Positions 1,950 through 37,861 of a stretch of 41,820 bases of DNA are shown here, piece after piece (within the stretch, counting starts at the first letter, position 1; every line of letters starts with the position of its first letter). This stretch comes from an uncultured Bacteroidota bacterium (lineage in GTDB: Bacteria; Bacteroidota; Bacteroidia; AKYH767-A; JABDAW01), in contig CAIMUP010000111.1 of the NCBI GenBank assembly GCA_903844645.1, positions 1-41,820 of the forward strand, written 5' to 3'. The position numbers and the translations under genes were made by a program. The notes under the pieces are model-generated. The model saw only the letters and a program-made list of their open reading frames with translations. It was not told the origin of the DNA and made no database searches.

Positions 1950-2009
1950 CTAAACTATTTGGAATAACAATCCCCCAAAAACCATAAAATAACCCTGAAA
2001 AACGTCTGC

Positions 2010-2261
2010 AAGACTATAAACCCGTTATGAAAGACTGCAAACCCGTGGTGAAAGACTGCAAACCCGAGGTGCAATACTTCCTACCCTCTTTGAAAGACTT
2101 CCTACCCTCTGTGCAATACTTCCTACCCTCTGTGCAATACTTCCTACCCTCTGTGCAAGACTTCCTACCCTCTTTGAAAGACTTCTTCTCCATTTTGAAA
2201 GACTTCCTTTTGAAGATGAAGTCTTTCAAAATGGAAATGAAGTCTTGCAAAATGGTTTTTT
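2010..2261. repeat. 21-bp tandem array L1, 12 units, ending in a long hairpin
   Basis: Twelve consecutive 21-bp units fill this stretch, with unit boundaries at 2010, 2031, 2052 and so on to 2241. Core unit tacttcctaccctctg; earlier units carry gactgcaaacccg instead. The last units are inverted: 2169-2206 and 2218-2255 pair as a 38-bp stem (33 of 38 positions) around an 11-nt loop, with the inner 16 bp perfect. The array lies upstream of the propeller gene and downstream of the next minus-strand gene. Because 21 is a multiple of three, open frames of 78 codons run through it on both strands; I regard them as by-products of the repeat. Confidence 0.95.
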
Positions 2262-2270
2262 GAATGAAGA

Positions 2271-2315
2271 AGTCCAGGTATTCATCCCCCTTTTTTCGGA
2301 ATGATTACCTGGACT
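2271..2315. other. Stem-loop downstream of the 206-aa protein gene
   Basis: AGTCCAGGTA at 2271-2280 pairs perfectly with TACCTGGACT at 2306-2315 around a 25-nt loop. It sits just after the 21-bp array and about 30 bp past the stop of the minus-strand gene at 2347. There is no clear U-tract, so its role as a terminator is uncertain. Confidence 0.45.
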
Positions 2316-4874: not shown

Positions 4875-5552
4875 ATGTTCAAGTCTTTCATAAATTTATT
4901 GTTCCCGAATTGTTGCCCCGCCTGCGATAACGCTTTGACGAATCCCAAAGATTTTATTTGCACCTTTTGCAGGTTTCATTTACCCAAAACCAATTTCCAT
5001 CCACATAAAATAAACCCCGTTTCAAAAAAATTTGATGGAAGAATAAATGTTCATTCCGCCACTTCGTTTTTGTATTATATAAAAGGTGGATTATCGCAGG
5101 GATTAATCTGGAATTTAAAATATAATGGACGAAAAGATGTAGGGATTTATTTGGGAGAACTATATGGTTACGACCTTATGGAAACAGATTTGTATAACAC
5201 CGTTGATGTGATAATCCCAATCCCTTTGCATAAAGATAAATACCGCAAACGAGGCTACAATCAAAGCGAACAATTCGCAGAAGGATTATCGAAAACAATG
5301 AATAAACCGACAGATTTTAGTACCACCGTAAAAACTATTTCAACCACCACCCAAACCACAAAAAGAAGGTATGAAAGATGGAAAAATGTAGAGAATAAAT
5401 TCGTGGTAAACGACTTGGAATTATTTCGCGGTAAGCATATTTTATTGGTGGATGATGTAGTTACAACCGGTTCTACGCTTGAAGCTGCCGCCATCGCACT
5501 TGCAATGGTGCAGGATATAAAAATCAGTATCGCGACCATAGCTTGTGCATAA
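4875..5552 (+). CDS. ComF family phosphoribosyltransferase-like protein
   Basis: 225 residues. An N-terminal zinc-ribbon-like region carries two CxxC pairs (CPAC near residue 14 and CTFC near residue 30). The phosphoribosyltransferase fold contains VIIPIPLH, KRGYNQSEQ and the PRPP-binding motif HILLVDDVVTTGSTLEAA. The set is typical of ComF/GntX proteins, linked to DNA uptake and recombination in competent bacteria; the substrate is unknown. It starts an apparent operon: 18 bp to the fRMsr gene, whose stop overlaps the next start. Confidence 0.92.
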   Translation: MFKSFINLLFPNCCPACDNALTNPKDFICTFCRFHLPKTNFHPHKINPVSKKFDGRINVHSATSFLYYIKGGLSQGLIWNLKYNGRKDVGIYLGELYGYDLMETDLYNTVDVIIPIPLHKDKYRKRGYNQSEQFAEGLSKTMNKPTDFSTTVKTISTTTQTTKRRYERWKNVENKFVVNDLELFRGKHILLVDDVVTTGSTLEAAAIALAMVQDIKISIATIACA

Positions 5553-5570
5553 TTTAAGATAAAAAATAAC

Positions 5571-6071
5571 ATGCCCGAGATTCTAAATATCCCTTCCGAT
5601 ACTCTTGATAAAGCAGAAAAATATCAAAGTCTTATCCCTCAAATAAAAGCTTTAGTAGAAGGCGAAAAAGATTTCATTGCGAATCTTTCAAACATCATTG
5701 CGGCATTAAAGTTTGGGATGAATTTCTTTTGGGTGGGAGTTTATTTTGTGAAAGAAAACGAATTGGTATTAGGACCCTTTCAAGGACCAGTAGCCTGCAC
5801 CCGAATAACTTATGGTAAAGGCGTTTGCGGTACTTCTTGGATGCAAAAGAAAACGATCATCGTTCCCGATGTAGATAAATTCCCCGGACATATTGCTTGC
5901 AGCTCCGAATCTAAATCAGAAATTGTTTTGCCGATATTTAATAACCATGAAGTAGCTATGATTTTGGATATTGACAGTTCGGAATTAAATACCTTTGATG
6001 CTATTGATCAGCACTATCTCGAAGAACTAACAAAGTTAATTGAAACCTTTTTTTATCGAGCATCTTTATGA
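5571..6071 (+). CDS. GAF-domain free methionine-(R)-sulfoxide reductase
   Basis: 166 residues, one GAF domain. The three cysteines of the fRMsr family are present as C76 (ACTRI), C86 (GVCGTS) and C110 (HIACSS). Their spacing of 10 and 24 residues equals that of Escherichia coli fRMsr (C84, C94, C118), so the enzyme should be active. It reduces free Met-(R)-sulfoxide in the cytoplasm with thioredoxin as donor. It lies 18 bp after comF-like and its TGA overlaps the next ATG (ATGA), indicating translational coupling. Confidence 0.93.
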   Translation: MPEILNIPSDTLDKAEKYQSLIPQIKALVEGEKDFIANLSNIIAALKFGMNFFWVGVYFVKENELVLGPFQGPVACTRITYGKGVCGTSWMQKKTIIVPDVDKFPGHIACSSESKSEIVLPIFNNHEVAMILDIDSSELNTFDAIDQHYLEELTKLIETFFYRASL

Positions 6072-10979: not shown

Positions 10980-11123
10980 GGTATTTTATTGGGTATGAAA
11001 CAAAAATCCTACCGTTTTATTTCATTCTTTGAGGGAATTAAACGGCTTCGTACGGGATTCCACGATTCCTTTGGTAGGGTATCAGTTTGAAAAGAAACTA
11101 TTAACCTCAATACTCATAGGAAG

Positions 11124-11270
11124 CTTTGTAATTCCCTTTTGGTAAAAGGAAGTATCCTTTTGGTAAAACACATTCGTATTTACGCCAAACACAATCGTAT
11201 TTACGTCAAACACAATCGTATTTACTCCAAAGACGATCGTCTTTGAGCCAATAGGGAATGATGTAATCAG
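11124..11270. repeat. 21-bp tandem array L3, about 5 clear units plus degenerate ones
   Basis: Units of 21 bp start at 11166, 11187, 11208 and 11229, core CACAATCGTATTTAC; the two preceding 21-bp blocks (11124, 11145) share TTTTGGTA with each other, and 11250 is degenerate. Unit 11229 is palindromic: CAAAGACGATCGTCTTTG at 11228-11245 is a perfect 18-nt dyad. It lies between the divergent sigma-factor and lipocalin-like genes. Confidence 0.9.
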
Positions 11271-11419
11271 TATCAGAATTGAGTTTGACTGATAAAAATT
11301 CAAAATGATACACTACCATTCCTTTAGAGGAATCCTGAACCTGCAAATTTCTTTTATTCTTAATATCACGGAATGATATTGGGAAGATTCGCTAATTTGG
11401 CGGCTTCAAAAATTATGTA

Positions 11420-14414: not shown

Positions 14415-14493
14415 CAATATTTATTTTTATTGGGTAGCGGGTTGTTTGAACTGGAATAAGGGTGCCAATTCGCAATTTATATACTTTTCGCCG

Positions 14494-14661
14494 TTCGGAC
14501 GGAACATGAATCCCTTAGGACGAAACGTGAATCCCAACGGACGAAATATGAATCCCAACGGACGAAACGTGAATCCAAACGGACGAAATATGAATCCAAA
14601 CGGACGAAACATGAATCCGAACGGACGAAATATGAATCCCTTAGGCGAAACCCTCCTTTTC
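14494..14661. repeat. 21-bp tandem array L4, 7-8 units
   Basis: Units start at 14494, 14515, 14536, 14557, 14578, 14599 and 14620, core GGACGAAATATGAATCC, with a diverged unit at 14641. From 14515 to 14640 they alternate aaC-tg and aaTAtg variants, so the higher-order period is 42 bp. A perfect 14-nt palindrome TTTCTTGCAAGAAA (14658-14671) borders the right end. It lies upstream of greA and beyond the terminator of the PorV-like gene. Open frames through it (Asn-Pro-Asn-Gly-Arg repeats) are not treated as genes. Confidence 0.95.
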
Positions 14662-14777
14662 TTGCAAGAAAGCGGAAAATTATTCATCGAAATGCCTGTG
14701 TTCATTTTACTGGGAATAATAAAAGCCGATAATCTTTGTATTGTTATCATTAAAAATCTTTGTATTGGGAATGTCAT

Positions 14778-15965: not shown

Positions 15966-18900
15966 TTAGAAAGTGTCAAGATCCAAGGGGCGCATAACAC
16001 CGAACCATTTGAGAGTCTTTTCGCATTGATCACTTTTAATATGAATCAAATACAATCCACTCGCGACAGGGATTCCCATTGAGTTTTTAAGATCCCAAGC
16101 TAAAGAAGTTTCTGGATTTGCCGCATCCGTTGAAGCTCCAGCAGAATTATCTACAGCCACGTCCCTATTAAACTGCCTGATTAAAGTTCCATTTAATGAA
16201 TAAATAGTAACCGTACAGCGACTTGGTAGATTGGTTATATAAACAGTGTTTGCTAATTGATTCGCCTCATAAGCCGAAAAAGCATAATAAGGATTGGGAA
16301 CCACATTCATCAAATCACAGGCAGATTTTGCTATATTTGGTTCATTTTTATCGGCATAAATATCTCCCGAGTTGAAAGTATAAATCGGTTGATTGTTGTT
16401 AACCTTAGTCACTGTTGCTGTATCATAAGGTTTATACGGTTTCGCAACCCTTAATCTGATTTTTACATTAGTGGATAATAATTTTTGTCCTTCTATCAAC
16501 ATAGGCATATTAACCCACATAGCTTCTCTCCAAAGTCTTAATATTGAATTCGTATTACCATAAGTTTTACCAATTGAATTAAGCAAAGAATCATAAAACC
16601 TACCTCCATCATAAATACCATCTGTGTAAGGCATATTTGCAGCAGGACCAGATTTTCCATGCATTAAATAAATGTAATGTCTTCCACCAAAAATGAAGCT
16701 ACTATTATCAGCGTAATTAGAGGTAGGATTCCAAAGCATATCTTTTCCGTTATCACCGGCTAACCAGGAATCTTCTCCAAAAATAATGTTCATTCTCTCA
16801 CCGGTTTCCAAATTAATAGCATACCCAGGAAACCAACCCATACCTATAGAATCTATATAGTTCGGATCACTCGGGTCGGTTAATCCATTGATTGTAGATC
16901 CCACATTCGTTGCATGGTTAATATCAACATTGGCTTTTGAGTTTCCATTCTTATCAACAGAAGCATGAGCACGCTTTAATAATTTAGGAGCTTTCCCTTC
17001 TGCCAAAGCCACATCATCGGATGTTTCAATAACAGGGCATCTGGTCCATTTAGATTTATCTGAAGTGATGAATAAATCAACACTTGCTAAACTATCGATT
17101 TGTGCCAATCGTTGAGCTGAACTTGCAATTGGTAAACTATTTCCTAAACCAGGTCCTCCAAAAGAAAGACTTGCAGGGTATCCTTTATAGAAAGTATTTG
17201 TATCAACTAGTCTATACGGAGCCCAGGTGCCTCCAATAATTTTCTCATAATTCTGAAAAGAATCTACAAAGGTTGGATTTGGACAAGGATTATAAAGTGC
17301 ATCAAAATCTTGCAGATTCGGAGTACCGCTACAAGGTGCATACATTCCGGAGTGAATCCAGTTGAAAGGATTCGCGATACCATCTTGGTCTTGAATTCCT
17401 GTTAACCACGCTTTTGTAGAATCATCAAATTTTATTGACGCTTCAAGGAATCCACCATTATTTAAACTTTGATTTAATCCATTAGTATGAGTAGGAACTT
17501 GGGCGATGTTTAAGGAGAAGCCCCACTTCGGAACAACTTGCTCATTACCGATAGCAATGGTAGTTTCTGAATTAACGGTTTCTTTCGTATCCAGGTTTAT
17601 CAATTTCCAATTAGCATTTAGAGAAACTGCTCCCCACAAAGTAAGAGGAACGGCAGTATCGCCAATTGTTATTTCAAAATTTCCTTTTGGTACAGCGACA
17701 GGGTCGTAAACTTTAATATTTACAGGACCTGCTCCATTTTTATAAACAGGATTTAAGGAACGATTGCTTGCACTATTCATTATCTCATTGATGCTCTGCT
17801 CGGTCATTTCTAAAATCATTCCACCATTTCCTTGTCCTTGAATACGGGTAAGCATAGGACCATCGCCATAATCACTGTTTAAAGTTTGTCCTCCGTTTTC
17901 TATAGAGGGAATATGAGGAATTGCTGAATAGGTTTTAACATTCAAACGACCGGCGAAATAAGGTTTCTTTTGTCCGTCTAACGCATTCGGATCGGTGGGG
18001 GTGAAGGTTTTATAGTTATTATGTCCATAAGCAACTACTGTGTAATAGTATGGTAAATGATTAATCAATGTTGTTCCAGTGAAGGCATCATTAGTGAATT
18101 TGAAAGTATGCGATATCCCTGCATCCTTTCCATCAACAACAGAAACAGGGACCAAAGCATTCAGAGTTGGATCCAAGTAGAAGTTTATTAATTGGCTGAT
18201 GCCATTCTTTACATCGCATTGGGCTACCAATCGTCCTTTGTCGGTGTTGTATCCGCCTGTCAATGGATTAAAAATATCGGAGTAAGTCACCGTAGCATCA
18301 TGTAACTGGAATACCTGATACCCTTCGAAATGATAATACTGATCGCAATTAGGATTCGTGGCATCGCAGATGATGGTAGGGTCTTTCTCTTTGTATTGTT
18401 CTTTGTAATTATTCGAGCTCGCAACATTAGATAAGGAGATAATAATCTCTCTATCCAATTCACGAACTGCCATATCCGGTGCATCGGGTCCATTCAATAC
18501 TGCGAAACAGTTGTCAAACAATGATTGTGCTTTATCATCGGCAAGTTTCAATTGAGTAACCGAAGCGGTAGGTCCGCCTTGTGTGGCTCGTGCCCAAACA
18601 ACTCCGGTGGTAACAATATTCAAGGCTCCTGGTTTCAAACTGAATTTCCCGGCGGATTGCAAGAACCTTCTGTCGCCAGGTAAATCTCCGGCTTCCGATT
18701 CTGTCCAATGTTTCGGAACGACTACAGGATTCGCGGTAGTACCTCCTAATCCCCAGCCATAAGCATCATCAGAATTATCGGGGAACATATAATTACATGG
18801 TGTAGAACCTCCATATCCGTTTCCGCCGAAGGTCATCGAAGTGCCATCTCGCCATAAGCCTTTCAAATATCCGTAATACTGCGTTCCGTTTGAGGGATTT

Positions 18901-20084
18901 CCTTGCAGCGACCCGTCGTTGTTATAATAAACAAACTTCGACATGATGATTTGTTCGCAAGCTTCGTCAATATGTCCATTCTTATTATTATCTATTCCGT
19001 CGTGCTGATCGGCGATAGGTCCTTGGAAGAAATCAACACCTACTGCCGGAGGATTACATCCATAACCGGTAGCTCCGTTATCGCAAGGATTTCCATTGTA
19101 GCAAAAGCCTAATCCGCGACTGACATCGCAGCCGACATAATCATCGGTGTAGTTTCCGAGATCGGCATCTACCCACTGCCCGATGTAGGTATCGTTCACG
19201 GTGAAGGTAGAGCGGTTGATGATTTTATATTGATAAAAGGTACAGTTATTAATTTCATCGCCTGTTTGGAAGGCGAAGGCTTGTGCTTGTATTTCCAAAC
19301 CGATGGGTTGTCCGCCGGTTTCCGAGTGGATATTCCCTACATCATTAAATACCCACCACAGTGTTTGATCGCCATACAGATAATCGTGGGCAGGGAAGCA
19401 ACTGTTCGGGGCATTCGGAGGGCAACCTGTTAAGGCAGTATTATTACAATTCGTGATATTATAATTCGGATAATCGCCGGTGGTATAATCATACACACCA
19501 TCGCCATTGTTATCAAAGAAAGGAGCCAGGGTTTGTCCTGAGCCATATTCCGAATTGCCGGGCCAGCCTGTGATTGCCAATGGAGGTGTTCCGTAAGACG
19601 GATACGCATTCGGGTTGCAATACCAGTTCGAGAAATCCTGAACTTGCTGACGGGTAATTTTCCAATGCTTGTCGTATTTCGTACAAACAGAGGCTTCCAC
19701 AGTCGTGGTATTGGCATTGACGGGACCGGGCCAGAAGTCGTTTCCGGTTTGGCGATAGGTCATGGCGGCAACTTTCAACTGACCTCCTGCATCAATTCCT
19801 CCTATCCAGATGGAACCTGCGAAGAGCGAGAATTTGCTACTCCCTTTCGGAACTTCATACCGTGCCGAAATTAAATCCCACCACATATCGCCGCCATTGA
19901 GAATCTTGGCTCTGACATTGTTGATATCCAAATCGGTTTGGGCGGTTGCCGGATTACAGCCCGATGCCGCGGTAGATTTCGGTGCGGCATTCCGATGATG
20001 TCCACTTCCTACATTTTCTACGGCATTCACCAGGGTGAGGCTGCCGAGAAGGATTAAAGCTGTTGTAAAGATTATCTTTTTCAT
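15966..20084 (-). CDS. Giant exported protein with FlgD/T9SS-like C-terminal Ig domain
   Basis: 1372 residues. The signal peptide is residues 1-21 (LLGSLTLVNA). The body is rich in Asn, Gly, Asp and aromatic residues and contains calcium-site-like acidic runs such as DNNGDGVYD and DGIDNNKNGHIDE. The C-terminus from about residue 1265 begins MNVVPNPYYAFSAYE and continues with VYITNLPSRCTVTIYSLNG and ASGLYLIHIKSD. This resembles the FlgD-like/T9SS end domain but lacks the usual basic strand at the very end, finishing MRPLDLDTF. Export is certain; T9SS export is inferred, and the adjacent PorV-like gene supports it. It lies 42 bp downstream of the Fn3-like gene. Function is unknown. Confidence 0.88.
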   Translation of the reverse strand: MKKIIFTTALILLGSLTLVNAVENVGSGHHRNAAPKSTAASGCNPATAQTDLDINNVRAKILNGGDMWWDLISARYEVPKGSSKFSLFAGSIWIGGIDAGGQLKVAAMTYRQTGNDFWPGPVNANTTTVEASVCTKYDKHWKITRQQVQDFSNWYCNPNAYPSYGTPPLAITGWPGNSEYGSGQTLAPFFDNNGDGVYDYTTGDYPNYNITNCNNTALTGCPPNAPNSCFPAHDYLYGDQTLWWVFNDVGNIHSETGGQPIGLEIQAQAFAFQTGDEINNCTFYQYKIINRSTFTVNDTYIGQWVDADLGNYTDDYVGCDVSRGLGFCYNGNPCDNGATGYGCNPPAVGVDFFQGPIADQHDGIDNNKNGHIDEACEQIIMSKFVYYNNDGSLQGNPSNGTQYYGYLKGLWRDGTSMTFGGNGYGGSTPCNYMFPDNSDDAYGWGLGGTTANPVVVPKHWTESEAGDLPGDRRFLQSAGKFSLKPGALNIVTTGVVWARATQGGPTASVTQLKLADDKAQSLFDNCFAVLNGPDAPDMAVRELDREIIISLSNVASSNNYKEQYKEKDPTIICDATNPNCDQYYHFEGYQVFQLHDATVTYSDIFNPLTGGYNTDKGRLVAQCDVKNGISQLINFYLDPTLNALVPVSVVDGKDAGISHTFKFTNDAFTGTTLINHLPYYYTVVAYGHNNYKTFTPTDPNALDGQKKPYFAGRLNVKTYSAIPHIPSIENGGQTLNSDYGDGPMLTRIQGQGNGGMILEMTEQSINEIMNSASNRSLNPVYKNGAGPVNIKVYDPVAVPKGNFEITIGDTAVPLTLWGAVSLNANWKLINLDTKETVNSETTIAIGNEQVVPKWGFSLNIAQVPTHTNGLNQSLNNGGFLEASIKFDDSTKAWLTGIQDQDGIANPFNWIHSGMYAPCSGTPNLQDFDALYNPCPNPTFVDSFQNYEKIIGGTWAPYRLVDTNTFYKGYPASLSFGGPGLGNSLPIASSAQRLAQIDSLASVDLFITSDKSKWTRCPVIETSDDVALAEGKAPKLLKRAHASVDKNGNSKANVDINHATNVGSTINGLTDPSDPNYIDSIGMGWFPGYAINLETGERMNIIFGEDSWLAGDNGKDMLWNPTSNYADNSSFIFGGRHYIYLMHGKSGPAANMPYTDGIYDGGRFYDSLLNSIGKTYGNTNSILRLWREAMWVNMPMLIEGQKLLSTNVKIRLRVAKPYKPYDTATVTKVNNNQPIYTFNSGDIYADKNEPNIAKSACDLMNVVPNPYYAFSAYEANQLANTVYITNLPSRCTVTIYSLNGTLIRQFNRDVAVDNSAGASTDAANPETSLAWDLKNSMGIPVASGLYLIHIKSDQCEKTLKWFGVMRPLDLDTF

Positions 20085-20126: not shown

Positions 20127-20792
20127 TTATTGTATTCTTCTTCCGCCTCCGAAGGGGGTTGAATCTGGTCCGTCGCCAGCCGTGTTATGGGCTACGATAA
20201 TAAAATTCAAAGGCACATTCAAATAATCGGTAGGCAAGGTAACTGTTGTCGAACTCTTCGAGGTGGATTCATCGGTATTCGTTACATCAATATATTGCGC
20301 TCTGTCGCCCACCGGTCCTTTCGTTACATAAATCCGGTAATCATCGGCATTTGCTTCTGGATCATGGTGAACATCGGCAGTGCCTAATTCATCGCCTTGG
20401 GTAGCGGAACCGTGCAACACGATTCCTGGAACCACGGTATCCGGAACAATTTCTTCTGTAACATCATAGCCTGTCGCAACATAAAGATCGGGGTTATTCG
20501 GGAATTGTTGTTCCAAAATAATTCCTGCGGCATTGGCTTTTTCAACCGACAGTTTATTTTTACTGTTCTTCGTATTTGTCGCCGTTTTGGATGCCAATTT
20601 TGCATCCGTATCTGCGGTAATTGCTACGTCCAAGGCATTGGATCCACCAGTAACAATAGCTCCTTGGGCGGCAACGGTTGTATTGGCACTCAAAGACAGA
20701 TTTGCCCCGATGGTATGCGTTTTTGCTTTATTCGCAGTGGCGTTGTCCGACACTTTTAATTTCTTGATGTGTTGTACTTTGTGATATCCCAT
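20127..20792 (-). CDS. Fn3-like protein in the TonB-receptor cluster
   Basis: 221 residues. Residues about 10-100 are Ala/Thr/Lys-rich and probably helical (ATNTKNSKNKLSVEKANAAG). The C-terminal half looks like one fibronectin-III-type beta-sandwich: VPGIVLHGSATQGDE, ADDYRIYVTKGPVGD, YLNVPLNFIIVAHNTAGDGPDSTPFGG. There is no signal peptide, although the neighbours are envelope proteins. It has the same size and plan as the genes at 2347 and 36821. Cluster order is receptor, small membrane protein, this gene, giant protein, PorV-like, all on one strand with gaps of 27-42 bp. Confidence 0.75.
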   Translation of the reverse strand: MGYHKVQHIKKLKVSDNATANKAKTHTIGANLSLSANTTVAAQGAIVTGGSNALDVAITADTDAKLASKTATNTKNSKNKLSVEKANAAGIILEQQFPNNPDLYVATGYDVTEEIVPDTVVPGIVLHGSATQGDELGTADVHHDPEANADDYRIYVTKGPVGDRAQYIDVTNTDESTSKSSTTVTLPTDYLNVPLNFIIVAHNTAGDGPDSTPFGGGRRIQ

Positions 20793-20833: not shown

Positions 20834-21136
20834 TTAATTCATTAAAAAAAGAGAAGAAAAAGATGTCGCTAAAGGAGCAAAAGATGTCGTTAAAACTCTT
20901 TTAGCAACATCTTTTGCTCCTTTAACGATATCTTTTGTTCCTTTAGCGAACGCTATTATTCCTATAATTAACGCTGAAAGAACAAGAGTTAAGGTTATAA
21001 GAGCAATACTCATTACTATTAAACCAATAGCAGGAGCTATAAAAGAAATAACAACCGCATTAACGGCAACAATGCCTGCTATAACAGTTATAACAGCAGC
21101 TATTTCCACCCTTGCAAATGCTTTATTAGAATCCAT
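20834..21136 (-). CDS. Small membrane protein whose 3' end is built from 21-bp repeats
   Basis: 100 residues. After a short charged N-terminus, residues 9-64 are almost continuously hydrophobic, enough for two helices (VITVIAGIVAVNAVVISFIA and LIVMSIALITLTLVLSALI). The remaining part is an amphipathic heptad-like tail, AKGTKDI-VKGAKDV-AKRVLTT, encoded by the 21-bp repeat and hairpin at 20858-20936. Spacing of 27 bp after the receptor stop fits an operon gene. I am unsure that it is translated, because composition differs from its neighbours and no family is recognised. It could be a small gene invaded in frame by an array. Confidence 0.5.
   Translation of the reverse strand: MDSNKAFARVEIAAVITVIAGIVAVNAVVISFIAPAIGLIVMSIALITLTLVLSALIIGIIAFAKGTKDIVKGAKDVAKRVLTTSFAPLATSFSSLFLMN
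20858..20963. repeat. 21-bp array L10 with a 38-bp inverted repeat
   Basis: Five 21-bp blocks start at 20859, 20880, 20901, 20922 and 20943, core GATGTCGCTAAAGGAGC; the first two are in one orientation and the rest in the opposite one. Arms 20858-20895 and 20899-20936 match at 34 of 38 positions, all four differences being transitions, and are separated by only 3 nt. It overlaps the end of the small membrane protein gene, inside the receptor-to-PorV cluster. Confidence 0.93.
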
Positions 21137-21163: not shown

Positions 21164-24100
21164 TTAGAAGTTCAAACTTGCGCCTAAACGGAGTTGGCGA
21201 GGCTGGGAATAATGTCCCGGATCGTTAATTTTGATGCGATATAAATCGGTGAACGACTGGCTCGACACTTGTTGTTGGATGCTTACTTGGTTCTGCGCAG
21301 CACTCAAATAGCCGTCATCCCCCGCATTACCCGTCGCGGCATAAACCGAAATTACGTTCTCGGCATTCAGCAAATTATTTATCTGAAGATAGATATTGAG
21401 GAATAATAACTTCTTATCCTCGCCATTCTTTTTACCGGTTTTGATGGTAATGTCGCGGTCAATCTTCATATCCACCTTGAACTGCCATGGAAGGCGAGAC
21501 CCATTAATCGTTCCCGTCAAATCGGTCCGTTGGCTCAACGTGAAATCGCCTGTTTCGTTAATGTTCGACTGCTTCGTATAAGGCGTTCCGCTACCGGCAT
21601 GGAAGATAAAATTGAAGCCCGTAGATTTCAAAATTTTCTTGCCGCCCACCACTGGTCCGGTGTACGCATCTTCGCCTACGCCGCTACCGAAACGGTAATC
21701 AACGGAGGTAACGATGGAATGGCGTTGATCAAAACTTAATGGCTGCGGCACGACCAAGTTCGGCTCGCCCAGGTTAATGATATTATATCCCGATTGTGCG
21801 CCAGAACCTGTTCCGTTAGCGAATTGCAGGGTGTAGCTCGCCGTCATTCTGATATTTTGAGTCCTTCTCAAATCATACGATAAAGTCAAACCTTTCACCG
21901 TCCCGAAATCCACATTCATGTACGTTTTATACGTTACCGGGTACGCATCCAGGATGTTCACCGTCTCGATATTATTCCTTAATTCCCGATAAAAAGCAGA
22001 GAGCGTAAACGAAGAACTGCGGCTTAATTTCTGTTTGAATCCGAGTTCATAATCCGTAGTACGTTCTGGTTGCAGGTTCGCATTGTTTAATAACTTCCCG
22101 CTGTTTTCCGCCATGAAAAAGTAATCCGTTTGAATCATTTGCGATGGGTCGTAGCTCAAGTTCGTCGAAGGTCTTTGGGTCAATACATCGTAATGCGCGA
22201 AGAACAACGCCTCATCAGAAATTGGGAATGAGAACGCGATACGAGGCATCACCGTTAAGGCTGGGGAATAATTCACGAAGCTGTTATCGGGCACAAAGTT
22301 TGGCGATTTGATGTCGTCGGTAGAATTAATTAAATACGGCGTGATAGACCCCGTTGCCGAAGATTTTGCGAGGATGCCCGGGTCATTAATTTGATTTCCG
22401 GCAGCATCATACCACAGGTTCGTAGCCGGATCGCGATACCCCACCACTGCCGATGGACTGTTGATATCGTTCACGTAGGTTACATAGTTTCCGCCAATGT
22501 TGCTCGGGGCAGCACTTCCGCCACGCAGCGCAGCCGTCTTGGTATCACCCGCCGTGTGGGTAGCATATAAGGAATAGGGGTCTTTAATCACTTTTTGATT
22601 GGCATCGTATCTGTCCACCCGCACCCCGATATTGAAGATCAGGTCGTTGAACACGAATTTATCTTGGATATATCCCGCCATGTATATCGGTTTGAATGCT
22701 CCGATGGCGCGAGTGTAGTTGCCCGTCTTGGCATCTTTCTGCGTAAAGAAATCGTTGAAGCTCGGGTTGCTGGTTAGTTTGTTTCCGAGATAATCATAAC
22801 CGTACCATGAAGCATAGCTGCTGTTGTTATTATATAATTCATCAGCACTGAACATATCTAAAGTAAACGTGGAAGGATCGTACGAATCAATATCAATCCA
22901 GTTCGTGCCATTCTGTGCCATGCCGAGTTTCTTTCTCAAGTTCTTATCGAAGTTCGCTTGGTGAGCGGCATCGTAGAATCTGCCATAGTTCACAGTATCG
23001 AGGAACGTTCCGTCATTTGCTCTTACCAATTGTGTATCGGCTTTGTTCAACTGTGTAATGTGTTGATTCGCCAACTGACGCATCAACGTCCACAACCCGA
23101 TAGGACCGATGTTGTATTTGCTATTGCTTCGTTGCTCATATTCGAAACCAAGGGTAATCGCGTGCTTGCCAATATCCGCAGAACCATTCGCCGACACACG
23201 GAACTGGTTGTTATTATAATAGGTGTATCCGTTATAGACCCTACCGGTATTGTACCATAAGCCATACACGTTGTGCGGACGGTCGCCATTTAATAAACCT
23301 CCATTCGCCTGAATGGTATTAAGGTTTCTGTATTGCGATTTATCATCCCCCGCAAGCTGATAGTATTCTTCGTCGTACTTTGAAGTTATCGGGTTCACCG
23401 TTCCTGGCGTATATTTCACCATCGTATCCTGGTAGGTAGTCATCAACCATCCATTCAAATGTGAAGCAGTATCTTGTCCGTAAGAATAGGTCTTGTCCTT
23501 ATAAGTTTGGAACTTCCCGACATAGCCATAGTTGAAGATTTGGTCGCCATACTGGTCGTTCTTCACCGTTTGTCCTGTTTGAGAATAATCTACCTGGATA
23601 GAATAAAACGCATTCTTAATAACTGCCTTCGCAGAAGTATCAGGATTGAAACGCTGTGTAAAACGGGCAAACACACGTTCCGTATTATCCAACTGCAAGG
23701 GGTTATTAAAAGAATTATACACCGAGTAAACATACTGCCACACATGTTGCTTTTCGTAAAAGACAGAACCACCAACTACGAAGTCTGTATTCTGTGAAGG
23801 TTTAAAATCTAACTTGCCGGATAAACTATAGGAGTTGGAGATTGAATTGTTTTTATAAGCCAAATGATCTATCTGGTCTCCAGTTACATAATCCGAATTA
23901 TCATTATACCCTTGTCCTATTCCTCTCAAACGAATAGGGTTATTTTCTAAGGAATGCAGTGTAGCATCATTGACCTTATATGTTCCTACATACGATGGGC
24001 TGCCATCTAATGCTCCTGAATATTCTCCTACTAAGAAGAACCCTGCCAATGGCACTTTCTTCTTTGCCTTGGCATCCATGCGGGTAAACAAAGGACCGGA

Positions 24101-24871
24101 GAGATTAAATGATATTAACCGAGAATTAAACTTGTCTAAGAAATAAGAACTCTCGGCAGAGATTCCGCCAGAATATTCTTTGGAAGGACCTTTGGTAGTT
24201 AAACTTACCACACCGCCTGATACATCCCCAATCTTAGCAGGAATACCGCCTACCATTACTTCGATTTGTTCGATACCATCGCGAGAGATATTTGGCGATC
24301 CGATTACGGGAATACCATCCACCATATATTTTGTGCCTTCGGGGCGTTGTCCACGGATTTCTATTTCGCCATTATCGGCAACATGTGCCCCGGCAACGGT
24401 TCCTACGATACCGGGAATGCTTCTCAATCCTGCGTCTTTAATATCGCCAGCATCGCGAGTATCGCCTGACGGACCTCCTCCTTTATCAATAATAGGACGG
24501 GCATAATCCGTAACGGTAAATTCTCCAAGGGTACGAATGGTCGAACTCATGATAATATCCTGGAAGGTAATCTTATCAGGCGATACGGGCACTCCCGCTA
24601 TTTGGCGCATTCCGAAGCCTGTGTAGCTTACCTTAATATCATACCTGCCGGGTTCGAGGGGTTTGATAACATAGTTCCCGTCGAAGTCGGTTGCTGCACC
24701 GCCTACCTGATTGCCGTTTTGTTCGGCAATGACATTAGCAAATGGGATTCCTTCATTTTTTGCGGAATCGAGAATCCTTCCTTGGATAGAGCCGGTTTGG
24801 GCGGCTGCGTAGGTAAGGGAGAGGATGAAGACCGTAACAACAACGTAGAGATTTCGTTTCATATCGTTCAT
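21164..24871 (-). CDS. TonB-dependent outer-membrane receptor
   Basis: 1235 residues. The signal peptide ends TYAAAQ near residue 25. Residues about 28-115 are a carboxypeptidase-regulatory-like domain (SIQGRILDSAKNEGIPFANV, then TDFDGNYVIKPLEPGRYDI). The plug follows with VDGIPVIGSPNISRDGIEQIEVMVGGIPAKIGDVSGGVVSL, and a long beta-barrel closes at GHYSQPRQLRLGASLNF. It imports or displays a ligand using proton-motive force from a TonB-ExbBD complex such as the one at 38633-41546. No SusD partner is adjacent; instead four other envelope genes follow. Substrate unknown. An alternative start is MKRNLY at 24862. Confidence 0.95.
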   Translation of the reverse strand: MNDMKRNLYVVVTVFILSLTYAAAQTGSIQGRILDSAKNEGIPFANVIAEQNGNQVGGAATDFDGNYVIKPLEPGRYDIKVSYTGFGMRQIAGVPVSPDKITFQDIIMSSTIRTLGEFTVTDYARPIIDKGGGPSGDTRDAGDIKDAGLRSIPGIVGTVAGAHVADNGEIEIRGQRPEGTKYMVDGIPVIGSPNISRDGIEQIEVMVGGIPAKIGDVSGGVVSLTTKGPSKEYSGGISAESSYFLDKFNSRLISFNLSGPLFTRMDAKAKKKVPLAGFFLVGEYSGALDGSPSYVGTYKVNDATLHSLENNPIRLRGIGQGYNDNSDYVTGDQIDHLAYKNNSISNSYSLSGKLDFKPSQNTDFVVGGSVFYEKQHVWQYVYSVYNSFNNPLQLDNTERVFARFTQRFNPDTSAKAVIKNAFYSIQVDYSQTGQTVKNDQYGDQIFNYGYVGKFQTYKDKTYSYGQDTASHLNGWLMTTYQDTMVKYTPGTVNPITSKYDEEYYQLAGDDKSQYRNLNTIQANGGLLNGDRPHNVYGLWYNTGRVYNGYTYYNNNQFRVSANGSADIGKHAITLGFEYEQRSNSKYNIGPIGLWTLMRQLANQHITQLNKADTQLVRANDGTFLDTVNYGRFYDAAHQANFDKNLRKKLGMAQNGTNWIDIDSYDPSTFTLDMFSADELYNNNSSYASWYGYDYLGNKLTSNPSFNDFFTQKDAKTGNYTRAIGAFKPIYMAGYIQDKFVFNDLIFNIGVRVDRYDANQKVIKDPYSLYATHTAGDTKTAALRGGSAAPSNIGGNYVTYVNDINSPSAVVGYRDPATNLWYDAAGNQINDPGILAKSSATGSITPYLINSTDDIKSPNFVPDNSFVNYSPALTVMPRIAFSFPISDEALFFAHYDVLTQRPSTNLSYDPSQMIQTDYFFMAENSGKLLNNANLQPERTTDYELGFKQKLSRSSSFTLSAFYRELRNNIETVNILDAYPVTYKTYMNVDFGTVKGLTLSYDLRRTQNIRMTASYTLQFANGTGSGAQSGYNIINLGEPNLVVPQPLSFDQRHSIVTSVDYRFGSGVGEDAYTGPVVGGKKILKSTGFNFIFHAGSGTPYTKQSNINETGDFTLSQRTDLTGTINGSRLPWQFKVDMKIDRDITIKTGKKNGEDKKLLFLNIYLQINNLLNAENVISVYAATGNAGDDGYLSAAQNQVSIQQQVSSQSFTDLYRIKINDPGHYSQPRQLRLGASLNF

Positions 24872-31195: not shown

Positions 31196-31274
31196 CAGAG
31201 TTTTGACCCAAAAACCCTCCATCTGAGGTTAATTTTTCACTTTCAGCCCCTAATAAAATCCCCCTTCCCCAAGA

Positions 31275-31442
31275 ATTCTACACCTAAAATCCCGCCGAAT
31301 CGCATTTTCTAACCCCCGAATCCAATATTCTAACCCCCGAATCGCATTCTCTAACCGCCGAATCCAATATTCTAACCGCCAAATCGCATTCTCTAACCGC
31401 CGAATCGTGTTCCCATACCCTCAAATCATCTTCCCATACCCC
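31275..31442. repeat. 21-bp tandem array L6, 7 clear units
   Basis: Units start at 31296, 31317, 31338, 31359, 31380, 31401 and 31422, with a degenerate one at 31275. Two variants alternate, CGAATCGCATTcTCTAACC and CGAATCCAATATTCTAACC, giving A-B-A-B-A and thus a 42-bp period, followed by two CCCATACC-type units. The array lies between the restriction-modification pair and the tRNA gene. Confidence 0.95.
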
Positions 31443-31492
31443 CTTTCGTAAATATCATAACTTTTTTCTTTAATTTGCAGCCCCAACAAAAA

Positions 31493-31567
31493 GGGATGTT
31501 AGCTCAGTTGGTTTAGAGCACTGCCTCGACAAGGCAGGGGTCACTGGTTCGAGTCCAGTACATCCCA
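31493..31567 (+). tRNA. tRNA-Val (anticodon GAC)
   Basis: A 75-nt cloverleaf. The acceptor stem GGGATGT pairs with ACATCCC, discriminator A; the D stem is GCTC/GAGC; the anticodon stem CTGCC/GGCAG encloses the loop TCGACAA; the T arm is CTGGTTCGAGTCCAG. The anticodon GAC is at 31528-31530. CCA is not encoded. The base before the anticodon (position 33) reads C, where U is nearly universal. An AATTTGC motif near 31472 may be part of its promoter. Confidence 0.93.
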
Positions 31568-33507: not shown

Positions 33508-33547
33508 TTCATAAAATCAGATAAAAAACCAATTTGAAACGACCTTT

Positions 33548-33673
33548 GCAACTGGGATACCAACCTTTGCAACGGGGATACCGACCGGAGCAACGGGGAT
33601 ACCGACCGGAGCAACGGGGATACCACGAGTTGCTCCGGTGAAGATTTTTAGCTGTAAAAAGGAGGTTTTCAGA
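33548..33673. repeat. 21-bp tandem array L7, 4 clear units with an inverted edge
   Basis: Units start at 33548, 33569, 33590 and 33611, core CAACGGGGATACCGACCGG; 33569 and 33590 are identical. ACCGGAGCAAC (33605-33615) pairs perfectly with GTTGCTCCGGT (33629-33639) over 13 nt, so the right edge holds an inverted part-unit. Two more 21-bp blocks (33632, 33653) are diverged, the latter with GTAAAAA also seen at 33675. It lies upstream of the metallopeptidase gene. Confidence 0.92.
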
Positions 33674-33727
33674 CGTAAAAACCAGTTTCCCGAGGAATGA
33701 TAGTTGCCGGAATTAGTTTCTTTTTCC

Positions 33728-37589: not shown

Positions 37590-37861
37590 GTCATATCGTC
37601 CCCCAATTTGGCGATAAGATTTCGGCTCAGGGCGATATGACGAAAAAATTCCATCATATCGCCGCAACCCATATCATATCGCGCCGCCGCCGCATCATAT
37701 TGCCGCAATGCCAAATCATATTACGTCGTCGCCACGTAATATCGCCCCACCGCTACGTCATAAGTTGCCGGAGCTACGTCATATTACCAGCCGCTCCCGA
37801 CATATCGTGGAATTTTCTGGAGATATGACGAAAAAATTTCATCCTATCTCCCAAGCACGAT
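37590..37861. repeat. 21-bp tandem array L8, 13 units (one step of 20 bp)
   Basis: Units start at 37590, 37611, 37632, 37653, 37673, 37694, 37715, 37736, 37757, 37778, 37799, 37820 and 37841. Only the step from 37653 to 37673 is 20 bp. Core ATCATATTGCCGC, the most diverged array here, in which mainly the CATAT/GATAT position is kept. GCGATATGA (37632-37640) pairs with TCATATCGC (37654-37662) over 13 nt. The units at 37632 and 37820 are near copies (GATATGACGAAAAAATT) although nine units apart. It lies between the 210-aa protein and OsmC genes. Confidence 0.9.

Follow-up and report, generated by a model that had tools for sequence, protein, structure and literature searches.

The hairpin at the center of this analysis is part of a degenerate, noncoding array of 21-bp units, and such arrays form a genus-specific class that is abundant in three genomes from a single genus of Bacteroidota. 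The window (the whole 41,820-nucleotide stretch analyzed, from an uncultured Bacteroidota bacterium) contains ten period-21 arrays by lag autocorrelation, all of them between genes. These arrays are noncoding and restricted to the genus, keep a fixed period, turn over between species, and are self-complementary. We consider it likely, at a probability of about 0.65, that they are satellite-like DNA that is amplified locally and prone to fold back, and that the hairpin originated when copying switched strands inside one of them.

The inverted repeat itself was found as the earlier note had described it: two arms of 38 nt, 3 nt apart, of which 34 of 38 positions pair (89%). Its four mismatches (G/A, C/T, C/T, and T/C) are all transitions, a claim that we confirmed base by base. 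However, the differences between units in the arrays of this genome comprise 632 transitions and 520 transversions. Because 55% of unit differences are transitions, four out of four in the arms (a chance of ~0.09) is unremarkable. The hairpin had also been expected to be very stable as RNA. Folded alone, the stretch reached -50.5 kcal/mol (z -8.7), a value reached by none of 200 shuffles, and it sits between two co-directional genes. Folded as DNA, it gave -31.4 (z -8.8), well outside chance. The mismatches lead to two G-U pairs on either strand, and we found no sense-strand folding preference across the arrays (P = 0.70). Together these two observations give no pointer to selection for an RNA hairpin, and the absence of a strand difference led us to reject selection for sense-strand RNA folding in the arrays as a class. 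The stem is long and A+T-rich, and on the transcribed strand it is followed by the T-rich stretch TCTTCTCTTTTTTT; a search for terminator-like sites made no call there.

The 21-bp units attributed to the hairpin are present, but the array exceeds it: period-21 identity runs across 20849-21130, which is essentially the whole of a 100-aa open reading frame (ORF). The array is nearly coextensive with this ORF and with the gap between the flanking genes, although TRF picks up just its best stretch (20909-20949). When the window was simulated 20 times with a first-order random model, no period-21 array appeared. The locus is thus an intergenic array of period 21, as the class is defined. Its units run head to tail without spacers, which is not the layout of a CRISPR array, and a search of the window with Rfam matched only a tRNA.

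The earlier note had placed the hairpin inside a gene for a 100-aa membrane protein. We judged the ORF to be a by-product of the stop-free array, and its status as a gene is not supported. Searched against protein family models, it matched nothing above any cut-off. The folate ECF S-component model gave an E value of 0.0038 (17 bits, where the cut-off is 60), and the matches to holin superfamily III (E = 0.025) and phrog_24278 (E = 0.062) were both far under their cut-offs; such matches fit a hydrophobic, repetitive sequence. Differences between neighboring units fall evenly on codon positions 1, 2, and 3 (46/46/41). Synonymous changes make up 4 of the 29 single-base codon changes, compared with ~25% expected, which is no excess. 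We found no orthologue in relatives. The comparison of C-terminal tails that had been proposed as a check therefore showed no conserved tail, as the entire ORF is missing there.

The same gap in other genomes tells where the array occurs. The receptor upstream is present in all 41 genomes of the order (41/41), and in the relatives examined a few tens of bases separate it from the orthologue of the 1372-aa gene, which comes next downstream. Among these relatives, only G001, the sister species from the same genus, has an array between the two. The unit of that array, TAGAATTACCCCAGTTCTATC, is unrelated to the 21-bp unit in the window. A sense ORF (142 aa) extends across that array too and shares no sequence with the 100-aa ORF. 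That a sense ORF spans the array in both species counts against the noncoding reading. The 221-aa gene occupies the gap between the receptor and the 1372-aa gene in the window species only, and its nearest homologue in G001 is on another contig. Several paralogues of it occur in the genus, also on other contigs. The features of the window are listed in Table 1.

Table 1. Positions of genes, repeat arrays, and hairpin arms in the window
Feature	Positions	Strand	Basis
21-bp array, intergenic	1962..2288	.	lag-21 identity
21-bp array, intergenic; ~7 related arrays elsewhere in genome	8755..9007	.	lag-21 identity
21-bp array within MITE-like element (~11069-11316)	11109..11292	.	lag-21 identity, terminal inverted repeats
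21-bp array, intergenic; gap in sister species ~78 bp, empty	14467..14694	.	lag-21 identity
1372-aa gene	15966..20084	-	orthologue directly after receptor in relatives
Gene for 221 aa with a weak fn3-like match, separating the array from the 1372-aa gene	20127..20792	-	profile match and comparison with relatives
100-aa ORF, judged spurious (array in open frame)	20834..21136	-	no family, absent from relatives
Degenerate intergenic array, period 21, with the hairpin as its inverted end	20849..21130	.	lag-21 identity up to 0.71
Inverted repeat, left arm (almost two 21-bp units)	20858..20895	.	arms compared base by base
Inverted repeat, right arm (loop CTC at 20896-20898)	20899..20936	.	folded in silico
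TonB-dependent receptor, upstream gene, conserved across order	21164..24871	-	Pfam PF13620, PF00593, PF07715
21-bp array upstream of receptor; ~18 related arrays elsewhere in genome	25323..25546	.	lag-21 identity
21-bp array, intergenic; ~12 related arrays elsewhere	31268..31489	.	lag-21 identity
21-bp array, intergenic	33514..33682	.	lag-21 identity
21-bp array, degenerate, intergenic	37659..37813	.	lag-21 identity
21-bp array at contig end	41590..41820	.	lag-21 identity

Beyond the window, we sampled 372 kb, or ~10% of the genome, and found 85 raw or 78 merged arrays, which amounts to 2.1 per 10 kb and 5.6% of the sequence; by extrapolation from this sample, the genome would hold ~800 arrays. 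The detector works with a threshold, so that old arrays escape it. Genes were called by ORF length, without a trained gene finder; on these calls, arrays make up 31.5% of the bases between genes and 0.33% of those in coding regions. They were present in 58 of 83 gaps of at least 200 bp, and these comprised 36 of 49 co-directional, 10 of 15 convergent, and 12 of 19 divergent gaps. The period is 21 or a multiple of 21 in all but rare arrays, and in the window no array with another period between 15 and 30 was seen at the threshold used. Many arrays are degenerate, and a minority carry indels. Several contigs stop within arrays, as expected because repeats break short-read assemblies. Outside the period-21 arrays, a 186-bp repeat occurs about nine times in positions 166-1822 of the window, in a long minus-strand ORF that runs off the contig end.

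The density of arrays per 10 kb was 2.1, 1.4, and 1.0 in the three genomes of the genus (G000, G001, and G002, respectively), and arrays occupy 4.0% of the sampled sequence of the nearest relative. Outside the genus, a genome of the same family (G003) had one array in 75 kb, the other genomes of the order had one in 423 kb, and 1.37 Mb of loci from other Bacteroidota contained period-21 runs only in isolation. In one related genome of the same order (G006; loci L069 and L070), runs of period 18 and 24 were numerous within 40 kb; this may be one more lineage with periods of its own, or the runs may be coding repeats.

What the arrays share is their period and, for the most part, not their sequence. 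Dereplication left 116 units from 137 arrays, and most of these are unrelated. No shared motif other than A/T tracts was found among the 116 units, and a common binding motif was rejected. In three gaps with arrays in both species, the units match at 8 to 11 of 21 positions, like random pairs (mean, 10), and certain gaps hold an array in one species but are short or empty in the other. Many arrays also have relatives at other sites of the genome, in one orientation or the other, and dispersed families therefore exist. At locus L050, the gap that carries an array at 5200-5700 is ~75 bp in the sister species; GTATTTAATGA stands on both flanks and is possibly a target-site duplication. The array at 31268-31489 is followed directly by a tRNA gene (31493-31567). 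A dispersed REP-like hairpin (GGTCGAGATTTGTAATCTCGTCCCC plus flanks) occurs at L038 16839-16895, 17900-17990, and 18650-18735, with matching repeats in G001 and G002.

Neither coding nor a shorter repeat accounts for the period. We found no period-3 signal across the arrays and no excess at the 7-bp sub-period (k = 3); on the latter ground, degenerate heptamers were rejected as their origin. Of the 59 arrays that lie between co-directional genes, 22 had a fully open frame in the sense and 18 in the antisense direction. With no period-3 signal, no preference for sense frames, and flat codon-position differences, coding 7-residue repeats were rejected as the source of the class. A 10.5-bp signal (k = 2) was modestly above that of genomic 21-mers (z of 3.2 for purines, 2.7 for A, and 2.9 for T). 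The units are also more self-complementary than expected: their dyad symmetry was 11.6, compared with 10.4 +/- 0.16 for shuffles and 10.3 for genomic 21-mers, and the arrays folded more stably than block-permuted units (n = 78; mean z of -1.3 and -1.5 on the two strands). Stems of at least 7 bp occur in 13 of the 116 dereplicated units, where ~2 are expected. As such stems are present in just about a tenth of units, fold-back may account for only some arrays. The hairpin is an extreme case of this self-complementarity.

A second copy of the palindrome lies elsewhere in this genome (C138:39247-39379). It is intergenic, flanked by an unannotated gene and one that is aminotransferase-like, and has the same CTC loop and long arms. 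The array at 20849-21130 has one relative only, which resembles just the hairpin, over ~106 bp. Both palindromes carry the apex-proximal arm variants GTCGTT and GTTGCT, on opposite sides. This arrangement suggests that the palindrome was copied whole and that afterwards either the arms changed places or the segment was flipped.

The origin that we favor would run as follows. Satellite-like DNA would arise as tandem copies are added locally, 21 bp (two helical turns) at a time, and each locus would homogenize its own unit, so that sequence turns over quickly while the period stays constant. The amplification would act preferentially on DNA that folds back, or be set off by it. If copying then switched strand inside an array, it would leave an inverted stretch with about two units per arm, which would be the hairpin; the palindrome, or a segment holding it, would later have been copied to the second locus. 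Any influence on the mRNA of the receptor operon would be incidental. Slippage by itself leaves the fixed 21-bp step unaccounted for. Moreover, since many arrays have relatives elsewhere and one family is MITE-like, dispersal must occur besides local amplification. Reverse transcriptase was discarded as the maker of the arrays, with no match to RVT_1 in this genome, and a phage origin likewise, with no match in phage records. A possible but doubtful account is that machinery of the genus duplicates or maintains intergenic DNA in steps of two helical turns whatever its sequence, and that the hairpin marks a reversal of copying.

Two further explanations apply to the locus itself. In one, the ORF is a genuine gene for a small membrane protein, repeats of 7 residues (21 nt being 7 codons, as in coiled-coil heptads) set the period, and the hairpin is coding sequence. 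The ATG lies 28 nt after the receptor stop codon, the ORF fills the gap, the sister array is spanned by a sense ORF as well, and coding 21-nt repeats are known, for example, in the RepMP1/DUF16 genes of Mycoplasma pneumoniae (PMC3472980). However, the lack of any family above cut-off, of common sequence between the two ORFs, and of any counterpart in all other relatives, together with the missing coding signals described above, makes this very improbable. In the other, the hairpin would work as RNA, through attenuation, RNase III-type cutting, or protection of the receptor mRNA 3' end, and expression of the receptor and the downstream genes would be unequal. The strength of the stem, the T-rich stretch after it, and its position between co-directional genes argue for such a role. 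We consider it improbable nonetheless: the terminator search made no call at the hairpin, the G-U pairs favor neither strand, arrays show no sense-strand bias and are equally frequent between convergent and divergent genes, and the sister species has a different array at this position and most relatives have none.

The remaining explanations concern the arrays as DNA. They might be functional spacers, in which a nucleoid or regulatory protein reads helical phase at two turns per unit, spacing is selected, and sequence drifts. A fixed period despite unrelated units, the 10.5-bp purine signal above genomic controls, and the presence of arrays in most gaps of at least 200 bp are consistent with this. 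But that signal is modest, there is no common motif, the sister species has no array in many gaps, and a minority of arrays carry indels; a 21-bp copying step would yield the same period without selection. We regard spacers as unlikely. Alternatively, the arrays might be the interiors of mobile elements (MITEs) spread by transposition. The element at 11069-11316 has terminal inverted repeats GGTAGTGTATCA(G/T)TTTGAA around a variable 21-bp core and several copies in the genome, which vary in their units and in unit number, and its copy in the window has an apparent 8-bp target duplication, ATTCCTTT. Many other arrays have relatives in either orientation. However, inverted flanks were found around 10 of 66 arrays, compared with 9 to 14 for mismatched flanks, which is no excess. 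MITE structure is therefore rejected as a general feature of the arrays and is confined to the 11069-11316 family. No terminal inverted repeats were seen around the array at 20849-21130, and its one relative covers only the hairpin. Transposition as the general explanation is thus quite improbable, and local amplification with a strand switch remains the reading that we prefer.

REP/BIME elements and MITEs are dispersed intergenic palindromes whose copies share sequence. The arrays resemble them in being dispersed, intergenic, and palindromic, and one family has MITE-like ends, but most arrays have only their period in common. In spirit, the nearest known system is the tandem repeats of archaeal Borgs, which form many arrays per genome with mostly unique units and are virtually absent from the host genome (PMC9879509). 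As in Borgs, there are many loci with unique units (here, 116 units from 137 arrays), either intergenic or in open frames. Borg units, however, vary in length, with 14 to 38% of intergenic ones divisible by three, and Borg arrays are near perfect and about half lie in ORFs (PMC9879509); the length here is almost always 21, many arrays are degenerate, nearly all are intergenic, and they lie on a bacterial chromosome. Heptamers are the commonest intergenic tandem repeats of prokaryotes (PMC6344855), and the TAACTGA repeats of Beggiatoaceae keep to one 7-bp sequence and often immediately precede a start codon (PMC4679880). Heptamer repeats are also intergenic, at many loci, and patchy in phylogeny, with long arrays in some Bacteroidetes (PMC4679880, PMC6344855), whereas the arrays here have a 21-bp unit with no 7-bp sub-period and no fixed sequence. 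RepMP1/DUF16 repeats likewise form 21-nt tandem repeats at several loci, but they lie in coding regions for coiled coils (PMC3472980), and the arrays here carry no coding signal. We found no published report of a genome-wide class of 21-bp intergenic repeats with hundreds of arrays alike only in period, in a literature search whose journal coverage was incomplete.

Bacterial intergenic DNA is usually compact. In this species and its nearest relative, ~4 to 6% of the genome consists of arrays that are alike in period and not in sequence. That the period is fixed without a fixed sequence implies that length, and not sequence, is what gets copied or selected, which is unusual and can be tested. 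The arrays also carry a warning for annotation: because 21 is a multiple of three, they often read as open frames and give rise to false "small membrane proteins." With ~800 natural arrays, and relatives in which the corresponding gaps are different or empty, this genus offers good material for studying the birth, homogenization, and inversion of bacterial tandem repeats.
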